The notes under the pieces were generated by a model. That model was not told the DNA's origin. It searched no databases and saw only the letters and a list, made by a program, of their open reading frames with translations. A DNA stretch of 64,000 nucleotides from Clostridia bacterium (lineage in GTDB: Bacteria; Bacillota; Clostridia; Oscillospirales; Acutalibacteraceae): NCBI GenBank assembly GCA_017438845.1, contig JAFRUO010000020.1:69349-133348 (forward strand), given 5' to 3'. Shown here in pieces: positions 48,453 through 52,585 of this stretch. Position 1 is the stretch's first letter. The number at the start of each line of letters is the position of its first letter. The position numbers were made by a program, and so were the translations under genes.

Positions 48453-48490
48453 AAGGGACGGAGGCAATCAGGCTTCCGTCCTTAAAATTT
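48453..48490 (+). terminator. intrinsic terminator after rmuC
   Basis: GGACGGAGGC (48456-48465) pairs with GCTTCCGTCC (48472-48481), followed by an AT-rich tract. Confidence 0.7.
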
Positions 48491-48575: not shown

Positions 48576-48785
48576 ATGAAGCAGATACAAATTAAAATTA
48601 AACCGAACGGTGAAATTGAAGCTGAAACAAAGGGTATGAAGGGCAAAAGCTGTCTTAAATACCTTGCCGAAATCGAAAGGATGACAAATGCTGTCACCGA
48701 CGACTCGAAATTTACACCCGAGTACCTTGAGGCGGAAACCGCCGAGGAAAACTCTCAGGTGCTGGAAAGCGAGGTTAATGCATAA
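48576..48785 (+). CDS. DUF2997 family small protein
   Basis: 69 residues. KQIQIKIKPNGEIEAETKGMKGKSC matches DUF2997, whose members usually have the IxIxPxGxIxxETxGxxGxxC strand-turn pattern and stand beside Ycf46-like ATPase clusters. The start has GAGGGGG nearby. The stop overlaps the next start by one base, so it opens a five-gene, tightly coupled operon. Confidence 0.85.
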   Translation: MKQIQIKIKPNGEIEAETKGMKGKSCLKYLAEIERMTNAVTDDSKFTPEYLEAETAEENSQVLESEVNA

Positions 48786-49825
48786 TGGCTATTACCAATA
48801 AGTCAAAGGAATGGGAGAGAAAAAATTCTCTTTATGTACTTTTAGGTCTTTTCCCGTTTCTTAATTCTCTTGCCTATTTTCATATGAACAGCCGTGTCCC
48901 TAACCCGAAGATGAAAAAAATGGGCTGGATTTGTCTGTTCATAAATATCTTTGTTGCGATTCTTGTGCTTCTTGCTTTGGTTGCCGATTCACAGTTATAT
49001 AACTGGATACCGATGCCAGAGAAGAATTACAGCTATGTATCTGAAAGTGATTATTTCGGCAATAACTATTATGACTATTCCGACGAGGAGCTGCTCACGC
49101 ACCCGAATTATGAGGAATACAGTAAGGCATATAAGGAATATCAGCAAAATCAAAACGACTATTTAAACAGTGCAGAATATAAAGCAGCCCAGAATTCCAG
49201 ACAAAGAGTCGGGGGAACAATAGGCGCAGTGACAGTCGGCTTGATAATTACTCAGGTTGTTTTTAATATAGTAATACTGTTTTCTCTTGTTTCGCAGCGT
49301 GCAGACTTCCTTCGGGCTCTCGCTCAAAGGGAGGACAGAGGGCAGCTTGCCTCAAGGTTAGGCCCGCAGGCTCAAAGCAACGCTCCGTCTGCGGCGAACA
49401 TTCCGCCTGCGGCACCGCAATATCAGCCTCCCGTTAACGCACAGTATCAGCCTCAGGCAAATGCTCAGTATCAGCCTCCCGTTAATACTCAGTATCAGCC
49501 GCAGGTACCGAACACTCAGTACCAACCCCCGATGCCGAATACTCAGCCTGTTCAGGCAGGTAACCCGAATGCTCTCGACCTCAACAGCGCAACCGAGGAA
49601 CAGCTTACGGCTTTACCCGGACTTACCGTGATTGACGCTAAAAAGGCGATTGAATACAGAACGGAGCACGGCGGCTTTTCAAGCAAGGACGAGTTCTTTA
49701 ATGCTATCAGTATAAAGCCTCATATTATGGTTAGAATTGACCCGCTTGTATATACCGGCGCAGTTTCGCAGACCGAAGCTAAATCGGGAAATCACGGCTC
49801 GGGCAGAAGAACAATCGACTTTTAA
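48785..49825 (+). CDS. membrane protein with QYQP repeats and ComEA-type HhH domain
   Basis: 346 residues. Two membrane segments are seen (about 20-35, 45-65, plus one more near 145-165) separated by a Tyr/Asp-rich loop. Then a low-complexity part of about five QYQPP or QYQPQ units (residues about 205-260). The C-terminal about 60 residues (LDLNSATEEQLTALPGLTVI and DAKKAIEYRTEHGGFSSKDE) are a ComEA-like helix-hairpin-helix, usually DNA- or protein-binding. The stop overlaps the next start. Function unknown; as part of the cluster it might tether the ATPase or a DNA to the membrane. Confidence 0.8.
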   Translation: MAITNKSKEWERKNSLYVLLGLFPFLNSLAYFHMNSRVPNPKMKKMGWICLFINIFVAILVLLALVADSQLYNWIPMPEKNYSYVSESDYFGNNYYDYSDEELLTHPNYEEYSKAYKEYQQNQNDYLNSAEYKAAQNSRQRVGGTIGAVTVGLIITQVVFNIVILFSLVSQRADFLRALAQREDRGQLASRLGPQAQSNAPSAANIPPAAPQYQPPVNAQYQPQANAQYQPPVNTQYQPQVPNTQYQPPMPNTQPVQAGNPNALDLNSATEEQLTALPGLTVIDAKKAIEYRTEHGGFSSKDEFFNAISIKPHIMVRIDPLVYTGAVSQTEAKSGNHGSGRRTIDF

Positions 49826-50433
49826 TGAGAGTCAACAGAATACTTGAAGAAACCTATGCCGAGGGACCGGGCAGAAGAATGTGCGTTTACGTACAGGGCT
49901 GCTCACATGCCTGCAAGGGCTGCTTTGCCGAAAAGCTTTGGGATTATTCGGGCGGCTATGAATGCAGTGCCGAGGAAATAATTACAAAGCTGCAACAAAA
50001 CAGCGACAGTCTTGACGGCATAACTTTCCTCGGCGGTGAGCCGATGGACAAGGCAGGGGAGCTGGCTTTGGTTGCCCGTGAGGCAAAGAAACTCGGACTT
50101 AACGTAATTACTTTTACGGGCTACACTTATGAGGAGCTTCTGAAGAGTGATAACGGCGGCATTAAAGATTTGCTTGAGCACACCGATTTGCTGATTGACG
50201 GCGAATTCCGTGAGGAGCTGCTCGACTACTCAAGGCCTATGGTCGGCTCGTCAAACCAAAGGTTTATTTATCTGAGCGACGCAATTTCAAAAGAGGATAT
50301 TGCCGCCTACAAAAACCGCTTTGAAATACGCACCGACAAAAACGGCGGTCTTACCTTCAACGGTATGGGCAATATTAAAAAGCTTCAAAAATACATTAAA
50401 GATTTGAGTGAGGAAAACAATGATACAGACTGA
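49825..50433 (+). CDS. radical SAM 4Fe-4S activase-like protein (NrdG-type fold)
   Basis: 202 residues. The N-terminal CSHACKGCF (C-x3-C-x2-C) follows VQGC. The glycine motif TFLGGEPMD and short barrel match the small radical SAM activases (NrdG/PflA-like). GSSNQRFIYLSD in the C-terminal part is also typical. No glycyl radical enzyme lies beside it. In this cluster it is translationally coupled (starts on the stop of the HhH gene and ends 14 bases inside the ATPase gene), so its target is likely within the cluster. Confidence 0.88.
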   Translation: MRVNRILEETYAEGPGRRMCVYVQGCSHACKGCFAEKLWDYSGGYECSAEEIITKLQQNSDSLDGITFLGGEPMDKAGELALVAREAKKLGLNVITFTGYTYEELLKSDNGGIKDLLEHTDLLIDGEFREELLDYSRPMVGSSNQRFIYLSDAISKEDIAAYKNRFEIRTDKNGGLTFNGMGNIKKLQKYIKDLSEENNDTD

Positions 50434-52054
50434 ATTTGCAAAGAATTTTTCAAACCTTGTAAACGCAGGCTTTCCGTATATCTATATTCCTTCATACGAA
50501 GAGGAGAGAGTTACGGTCAGCATCAGAAACATACTTGCTGACAGAGAGCTTATCAAAAACGAAAGAAAGCTCTTTATCTGGACTCAGACCGACGGTATTG
50601 TCGGTGAGGACGGCAAGCAGGTAAGAGACAGCAACGAGCCGATAAGGGCAATTGAAAGCATCGCCCGTTCAAACGAAGAGGCGGTTTACCTTTTAAAGGA
50701 TTTTCATATTTATTTCGGCGCAGACCGTCAGTCAAGACCCGACTACGCCGTTATCAGGAAGCTCAGGGACATTATCCCCGACCTTAAAAATTCGAGAAAA
50801 ACCGTTGTTTTCCTCTCGTCAAAGCTCGTTATTCCCTGCGACATGGAGAAGGAAATTTCAATTCTCGACTTTGACCTTCCCGCAGAGGAGGACATCAAAG
50901 CTCTGCTTAACGAGTTAATCGCAGGTCTTAACCCCGAAAACGTAAACCTGACCGAGGACGAAAAGACCGTGCTTGCACGCTCGGCTCTCGGCCTTACAAT
51001 GCAGGAGGCTGAAAACGCATTCTGCAGAGCGATAGTTAACCTTAAAGGACTTAATAAGAACGCCATTTCGATTATTCACGAGGAGAAAAATCAGGTAGTC
51101 AAAAAGACGGGAGTGCTTGAGTTCGTAAAGAGCGACCTTAACATTGACGACATAGGCGGTCTTGACAACTTAAAAACCTGGCTTCTTCGCAGAAACAATT
51201 CGTGGTCGGAAAAGGCAAAGGCATATAACCTGCCCGCACCCAAGGGCGTGCTTATCACGGGCGTACCTGGCTGCGGAAAATCCCTTACCGCAAAGGCAAT
51301 GAGCGCTATCTGGGGGCTTCCGCTTCTCAAACTCGACATGGGTAAGATTTTCGGCGGCATCGTCGGAAGCTCGGAGGAGAATATGAGAAAGGCGATTTCC
51401 ACCGCCGAGGCTGTTTCACCGTCAATTCTCTGGGTTGACGAAATTGAAAAGGGCTTTTCGGGCATCAAGTCGGGCGGCGACAGCGGAACCTCGGCAAGAG
51501 TTTTCGGCACCTTCCTTACCTGGATGCAGGAAAAAACGAAGCCCGTTTTCGTAATTGCCACCGCCAATGACATCAGCTCGCTTCCGCCTGAGCTTTTAAG
51601 AAAGGGCAGATTTGACGAAATCTTCTTCGTTGACATTCCCACCACAAAAGAGCGTGAAAAGATTTTCAGCGTACATATCAATAAAATTACAAAGAATTCA
51701 AAAATTGAGCACGAAATCAAGGCTGACGAGGAAACCTGCAGAATTCTTGCCAATGCTTCGGCAGGCTATGTCGGCGCAGAAATTGAGCAGATTGTTGTAG
51801 CCGCAATGTATGAGGCGTTTTACGCCGACAGAGGTCTTACAAAAGAGGACGTGCTTAAATGCATCAGCGAAACGGTTCCGCTTTCAAACACCCAGCGTGA
51901 GCAGATTCTTGCGCTTCGTGAATGGGCGAAGGAAAGGGCTGTTCTCGCCACTGCTCCTCAGGACAGAGAGGAAGCCTCGGGCACATTCGACAGAGATGAT
52001 GACGACGGCTTTACGCACAGACAAGGCGGCAGAATAGTCGACTTTGATTTATAA
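50420..52054 (+). CDS. Ycf46-like AAA ATPase
   Basis: 544 residues from ATG 50420, preceded by GAGTGAGG; an in-frame start at 50408 is less suitable. The N-terminal part has [20 protein letters not shown] and a [11 protein letters not shown] strand, characteristic of the Ycf46-type AAA proteins of cyanobacteria and plastids. The second half is a canonical AAA+ module: Walker A GVPGCGKS, Walker [10 protein letters not shown], sensor ATAND, arginine finger [12 protein letters not shown]. Mostly soluble, no membrane segment. It may remodel a membrane or photosynthesis-related complex in other organisms; here the partner is unknown. The stop is 14 bases before the DUF1257-like gene. Confidence 0.9.
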
Positions 52055-52068
52055 GGAGGACACGGCTT

Positions 52069-52536
52069 ATGTCAATGATTCTTACCCTTACATCTGCGGC
52101 AATTCTTGCAGGCGTTACTCTTACGGGCACGTCTCTTTCGGTTATAGCCTCCAAGGTCAGCGACGGTATTGTTGACGAAATTCCCGAAGGGCTCGACACT
52201 ATGTTTGTCGACTGTCAGGTGCTCATAGATACGCTTAACGGCTTTGACTGCCACATCAATCAGGTTGACGAGAACACTATTTATGTCGAGACCACCGCCG
52301 GCAATCTCCGTTATGCAAGGCAGAACAATACCGAGGCATTCAAGCTTTATCTTGACGAGGTTCGGAACGCCGATGCTCTGTATCAGAACATAAAGCAGCT
52401 TGAGGTCGATTACGGCAGAAATGTCCAAAGCTATACCTACGACCATATTAAGCAGAACCTTTCAAAGGGCATGACTATTCAGTCGGAGGAAGTGCTTGAG
52501 GACGACACGCTGTTTTTGACTATCAATGTAGAATAA
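52069..52536 (+). CDS. DUF1257-like (Ycf35-type) small protein
   Basis: 155 residues. An N-terminal hydrophobic stretch (ILTLTSAAILAGVTLTGTSLS) could anchor it; the C-terminal half (QLEVDYGRNVQSYTYDHIKQ and MTIQSEEVLEDDTLFLTI) resembles DUF1257/Ycf35, which co-occurs with Ycf46 and DUF2997 in cyanobacteria. The similarity is by eye and partial. AAGGAGG precedes the ATG. It closes the five-gene operon; a terminator follows. Confidence 0.65.
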   Translation: MSMILTLTSAAILAGVTLTGTSLSVIASKVSDGIVDEIPEGLDTMFVDCQVLIDTLNGFDCHINQVDENTIYVETTAGNLRYARQNNTEAFKLYLDEVRNADALYQNIKQLEVDYGRNVQSYTYDHIKQNLSKGMTIQSEEVLEDDTLFLTINVE

Positions 52537-52547
52537 GCAATAAAAAA

Positions 52548-52585
52548 TGAACCGCAACAGTCAAACGGCTGTTGCGGTTTTGTTA
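52548..52585. terminator. terminator between DUF1257-like gene and glnA
   Basis: AACCGCAACAG (about 52550-52560) pairs with CTGTTGCGGTT (about 52569-52579) over a short loop, with a T run on plus and an A-rich flank so that it can serve the minus-strand glnA as well. Confidence 0.8.

Follow-up and report, generated by a model that had tools for sequence, protein, structure and literature searches.

A C-terminal tag shared by a Ycf46-type ATPase and its co-encoded partners in a mobile five-gene cassette

In Synechocystis, DUF2997, ycf35 and fed7 form one operon, and the Fed7 protein, which binds a DnaJ-like protein, is required for stress tolerance (PMC4284462). Ycf46 is linked to CO2 use in the reference list of PMC12172450, and red algae carry or lack ycf35 and ycf46 according to their habitat (PMC5940233). 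Ycf46, Ycf35 (DUF1257) and DUF2997 are widespread and have no assigned mechanism, the papers found to name any of them being mostly genome lists. Here we analyse a cassette of five genes in a window of 64,000 nucleotides (the whole stretch of DNA considered, from contig JAFRUO010000020.1) of a gut Clostridia bacterium of the Acutalibacteraceae. The cassette encodes a DUF2997 protein, a membrane protein with an HhH domain, an NrdG-like radical SAM protein, a Ycf46-like tandem AAA ATPase and a DUF1257 homologue. Its DUF2997 and DUF1257 components are homologous to those of the cyanobacterial DUF2997-ycf35-fed7 cluster, its tandem AAA protein is of the Ycf46 type, and DUF1257, DUF2997 and AAA genes also stand together on cyanobacterial plasmids. 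However, the window set contains a radical SAM protein in place of the ferredoxin, and both its HhH membrane protein and its ATPase carry a C-terminal tag, whereas the cyanobacterial plasmid ATPases that we checked are without the R-x-x-D tag.

The tag, R-x-hydrophobic-D-hydrophobic, lies at the C-termini of two proteins that are unrelated to each other: ATPase tails read GGR-x-[LVI]-D-[FIVY] and HhH tails R-x-[ILV]-D-[LFIY]. Using the ATPase, we found 80 related loci and counted tags with a regular expression over C-termini. It is present on 80 of 81 ATPases and 77 of 78 HhH proteins, the exceptions being a truncated ATPase and a first HhH-like gene that adjoins a second, tagged HhH gene, and its Arg and Asp are 100% conserved in both families. 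None of the other three families carries it (0/67 DUF2997, 0/78 radical SAM and 0/79 DUF1257 homologues). Among 924 other neighbouring genes only nine encode the tag, and all nine are located inside the cassette operons of four loci. Among these nine are proteins that combine TPR arrays with an HhH domain, a single HhH protein whose N-terminal half differs, and an Mrr-type nuclease (Mrr_cat) that is anchored in the membrane and has no HhH domain. Across loci, the N-terminal halves of extra tagged proteins are unrelated (TPR, GYF_2, or transmembrane plus Mrr_cat). The PH-like/GYF_2 proteins of other loci ('PH-like' being judged by eye) likewise finish with HhH and tag. No second HhH-tag protein was found elsewhere in the genome that carries the window cassette. 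The shared tag, which the sequence-only reading from which this work started did not contain, is strong and statistically supported; the mechanism considered below is partly inferred. At one Gastranaerophilales locus (L083:5285-11847), four extra tagged proteins, three with TPR and one a membrane-anchored Mrr-type nuclease, occur together with a second DUF1257-like gene.

All five genes are present in 66 of the 80 loci retrieved with the ATPase, and most gaps are at contig ends. The grouping is therefore not due to chance, and the cassette is a true functional unit that resembles a Ycf46/Ycf35/DUF2997 set, as first read; unrelated neighbours in relatives, named beforehand as the refuting outcome, were looked for and not found. 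Complete loci show six gene orders, the main three of which occur in 27, 23 and 11 loci and the other three in five loci, and the flanking genes are ordinary, lineage-specific housekeeping genes. The relatives belong to Clostridia, Bacilli, Coriobacteria and Gastranaerophilales, and the loci nearest to the window cassette come from metagenome-assembled genomes of Clostridia/Ruminococcaceae. Within the genus, distribution is patchy, DUF2997 being present in 3 of 36 genomes. The window cassette sits between rmuC and glnA, which in one congener are about 160 bases apart with nothing between them, and neither gene is near the cassette in the other two carriers; the insertion sites within the genus differ. 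Plasmids of Paenarthrobacter, Rhodococcus and Arthrobacter also bear cassettes that retain the tag, and those from Rhodococcus and Arthrobacter are conjugative. The gene set is real, mobile and apparently undescribed, and extends over several phyla and conjugative plasmids; our literature search found no paper describing the cassette or tag, and none of Pfam, NCBIfam, PADLOC and PHROGs assigns a function to the five-gene set. The view that the ATPase and DUF1257 are known mostly from photosynthetic organisms did not survive this survey, as members of the family are also present in Bacilli, Clostridia and Coriobacteria, on actinobacterial and IncA plasmids and in many phages, and a photosynthetic link for the cassette finds no support.

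Many phages encode ATPases of this type, as do cyanobacterial, Bacillus, Paenibacillus and IncA plasmids; DUF1257 and DUF2997 often accompany them, and in part a radical SAM gene as well. In these settings the ATPase and a neighbour are again often matched at their tails, but with another sequence (for example DIEF/DIEF). The first matched tails, TDLEF/SDIEF in P. urinalis and GRKLAIGD/KRKIILD on IncA plasmids, were found by eye, and a permutation test of tail matching on 26 known loci gave p 0.0025. Because the idea had already been seen in some of these loci, the permutation was rerun on 37 non-redundant viral loci that were retrieved after the first examples, in which ATPase tails were closer to those of their own neighbours than to those of other loci (permutation p 2e-4). 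A loose motif, R.[hydrophobic].[hydrophobic], occurred in 8/26 ATPases and 15/118 neighbours against 15/900 in the background; with the motif fixed beforehand, the held-out viral loci gave 10/37 for ATPases (against 5/289, p 2e-7) and 15/266 for neighbours (against 5/289, p 0.02). Among the systems closest to the cassette is a cluster of giant Bacillus and Paenibacillus phages and plasmids (L220-L225, L168, L171), in which a radical SAM protein, a tail-sharing partner, the ATPase, DUF1257 and DUF2997 follow in one run, although the partner is unrelated and has no HhH domain and the tail is D[IL][ED][FLI]. The phage loci L220-L225 hold the same five kinds of component, and ATPase and partner both end in D[IL][ED][FLI], the pairs being NDIEF/SDIEF, DEIEF/TDIEF, PDIEF/ADIEL, PDLEF/ADIDL, DDIEI/ADIEL and PDLDL/SDIDL. 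A viral scan with the IncA ATPase confirmed nothing, and neither did one with a cyanobacterial DUF1257. Natural DUF1257-DUF2997 fusion proteins are encoded at L123:7591-8259, L122:7394-7927 and L129:7666-8310. The shared tag offers a first testable handle on partner choice in a large ATPase family best known from cyanobacteria, and it supplies a rule by which their partners can be sought in phages and on conjugative plasmids.

The predicted fold of an ATPase homologue (L048) matches p97/Cdc48 over both AAA domains. In contrast to p97/Cdc48, however, the first AAA domain of the window ATPase lacks a P-loop, its pore loop (I/L-V-G) is not aromatic and its partners are different. At L048 a single reading frame holds the ATPase, the DUF1257 homologue and DUF2997, which allowed a fusion of the three, reading through the two stop codons, to be folded. 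The tag block reached a predicted local distance difference test score (pLDDT) of 78 in this fusion compared with 36 in the ATPase alone, which points to a contribution of DUF1257 and/or DUF2997 to a predicted tag-reading site. We consider the chances about even that the cassette is a tag-directed AAA machine acting on co-encoded tagged partners. In such a machine, a Ycf46-type ATPase ring, with degenerate and active AAA domains, would work with two small proteins, DUF1257 and DUF2997, and the shared tag would act as an address for docking, recognised at a single site of the complex. Tagged partners would be brought to the ring and then remodelled or assembled; the usual partner would be the membrane-anchored HhH protein, and in some loci tagged proteins of TPR, PH-like/GYF or nuclease type are encoded in addition. 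The partner's tail may use the same site as that of the ATPase, the non-aromatic pore loop suggests remodelling more than processive threading, and the radical SAM protein might modify or sense through the complex. Proteasomal ATPases likewise dock through a short C-terminal motif, the HbYX tail. The likeness lies in a short C-terminal motif on an AAA ATPase and in the docking role proposed here, but in our case partner proteins share the motif of the ATPase and its sequence varies by cluster along with theirs. A broader proposal, to which we lend slightly less credence than an even chance, is that Ycf46-type ATPases constitute a general class of address-tag machines, spread over phages, plasmids and many bacteria, in which ATPase and partner tails are in many clusters cluster-specific and change together like lock and key, and that the window cassette is a radical-SAM, membrane-linked branch with modular tagged partners.

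Several observations weigh against the tag-directed mechanism or qualify its evidence. The fold evidence consists of a single pair of monomer-type predictions in which proximity was forced, judged on pLDDT, and the mean pLDDT of the two folds also differed (85.6 vs 80.1). One or two residues trail some tags, as in the window ATPase (RIVDF-DL), which means that the tag does not strictly require a free carboxylate. The loci in the tail statistics are not all independent, some viral loci are related to the plasmid examples, and chance may account for weak pairs. Finally, eight loci (L098, L107, L172, L174, L179, L186, L192 and L193) have matched tails in the absence of recognisable DUF1257 or DUF2997 in the stretch searched, from which it follows that the reader may be the ATPase ring itself. 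This is the main rival explanation: the tail would dock on a neighbouring protomer, for example on the degenerate AAA domain, from which partner tails would displace it, leaving DUF1257 and DUF2997 as accessory proteins. Docking of this kind could not show in a monomer fold, and the ATPase alone among the components is found wherever tails are shared, several of these clusters lacking recognisable DUF1257 and DUF2997; but the predicted tail was ordered only when these two were present, and we judge docking in the ring rather unlikely.

The remaining explanations assign the cassette another task. Short peptide motifs are frequent targets of radical SAM enzymes, and the enzyme here retains all of its catalytic motifs and is nearly always present in the cassette, so the tag might be its substrate, the C-termini of cassette proteins being modified. 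Matched tails are also present, however, in clusters that have no radical SAM gene (L098, L107, L170, L172, L174, L186, L192), and we regard modification of the tag as very improbable. An anti-phage defence system with tagged effectors would be in keeping with a patchy, mobile cassette on conjugative plasmids and with the tagged Mrr-type nuclease added at one locus, but PADLOC returned only generic AAA and viperin-like matches, the 79 flanking proteins show no enrichment for defence islands and phages themselves commonly carry related ATPase clusters; we hold this to be improbable. The sequence-only reading had proposed redox-protein maturation or a membrane complex. A membrane-linked complex is plausible. 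Maturation of a redox protein might be expected from the NrdG-like protein of the cassette and from the cyanobacterial case, in which DUF2997-ycf35 adjoin the ferredoxin gene fed7, required in oxidative and metal stress (PMC4284462). No substrate is evident, however: our survey of the flanks in different lineages showed no further gene that recurrently accompanies the cassette, be it for a glycyl-radical enzyme or for another redox enzyme, and the NrdD of the genome has an NrdG-like neighbour of its own. We hold a redox-protein maturation or activase system to be highly unlikely. The tag-directed machine remains our preferred reading.

The positions of the five genes and their overlaps (1, 1 and 14 bases) proved exact as first read, and the DUF2997, HhH, radical SAM and AAA identities were borne out by direct profile matches; the features are collected in Table 1. 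The DUF2997 protein exceeds the Pfam gathering score (52.4 bits vs 24.1 for PF11211) and contains a G-K-G-x-x-C motif, with Cys26 and Thr47 invariant in 75 sequences (numbered from the row starting at 48576). Two hydrophobic stretches, residues 43-75 and 142-176, precede the HhH domain of the membrane protein. The radical SAM protein matches Fer4_12 (E 3e-34), and its best NCBIfam match is NrdG, at 118.7 bits, which is below the TIGR02491 cut-off of 126.1. That it is the only NrdG of the genome was ruled out: NrdD is encoded on a different contig with its own NrdG-like protein nearby, so the cassette activase is not simply the activase of ribonucleotide reductase. In the ATPase, the PF00004 domain (E 1e-30) is preceded by a degenerate AAA domain, giving the Ycf46 architecture of degenerate then active AAA in about 500 residues as judged from motifs and the homologue fold, and identity to the cyanobacterial plasmid ATPases is 42% over 92% of the query. 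The fifth protein had been read as DUF1257-like. No Pfam match to DUF1257 (PF06868) over the gathering score was found in it or elsewhere in its genome, and a direct tblastn search from it recovered no DUF1257, so profile comparison was needed. Aligned with the true DUF1257 family using hhalign, its relatives gave a probability of 96.7% (P 4.5e-10) across the whole domain (residues 41-153 vs 6-124), compared with 0.1-1% for four control families. To judge from this profile-profile match, the protein is a divergent DUF1257 homologue not filed as a Pfam member, set apart from Ycf35 by a hydrophobic N-terminal extension.

Table 1. Features of the cassette and its borders, in window coordinates.
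Feature	Position	Strand	Basis
DUF2997 protein, 69 amino acids	48576..48785	+	PF11211 E 4.8e-14; conservation across 75 sequences
Membrane protein with HhH domain and C-terminal tag, 346 amino acids	48785..49825	+	HHH_3 E 2e-10
HhH_3 domain of the HhH protein, residues 263-314	49571..49726	+	Pfam match
Tag RTIDF, C-terminus of the HhH protein; Arg342 and Asp345 invariant	49808..49822	+	
NrdG-like radical SAM protein, 202 amino acids; CX3CX2C and GGE motifs invariant	49825..50433	+	
Ycf46-like tandem AAA ATPase, 544 amino acids; degenerate N-terminal AAA, then active AAA	50420..52054	+	PF00004, motifs, homologue fold
Tag RIVDF of the ATPase, within GGRIVDFDL; Arg538 and Asp541 invariant	52031..52045	+	
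DUF1257 (Ycf35) homologue, 155 amino acids, extra hydrophobic N-terminus	52069..52536	+	hhalign, residues 41-153
Terminator-like hairpin between rmuC and the cassette	48454..48483	+	consensus match only
Terminator-like hairpin between the cassette and convergent glnA	52550..52579	- (scored on minus strand)	consensus match only

Further arrangements were observed around related ATPases. The IncA conjugative plasmid of Salmonella (L170:3728-7066) encodes AAA, DUF1257 and DUF2997 together with an exported protein; the tail of the latter, GKRKIILD, is similar to that of the AAA protein, GRKLAIGD. A cluster type that lacks DUF1257 and DUF2997 (L098:7004-9799, L186, L192, L193) combines the AAA protein with two partners, the tails being RxxNLN / RAxxLD; one matched-tail partner at L098 is DUF3150, and a literature search returned nothing on shared tails of this kind or on DUF3150 with AAA. 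In Corndog-type mycobacteriophages (L105:4887-7482), the AAA tail is VRVLDL and the next protein has GRAIDFE and GYALDFE near its end. A plasmid of Treponema succinifaciens (L091:6354-8509, L134:3001-3408) carries AAA, radical SAM and DUF1257 genes among contractile-tail genes (VgrG, baseplate, sheath), and on a Pseudanabaena plasmid (L092:2577-8521) GrpE and Hsp70 directly adjoin DUF1257, DUF2997 and the AAA gene. At L218 the AAA tail is STRKVRIEE, and three small proteins encoded nearby end in NRFSLVKV, SRFSQVKL and SRFSLVKL.

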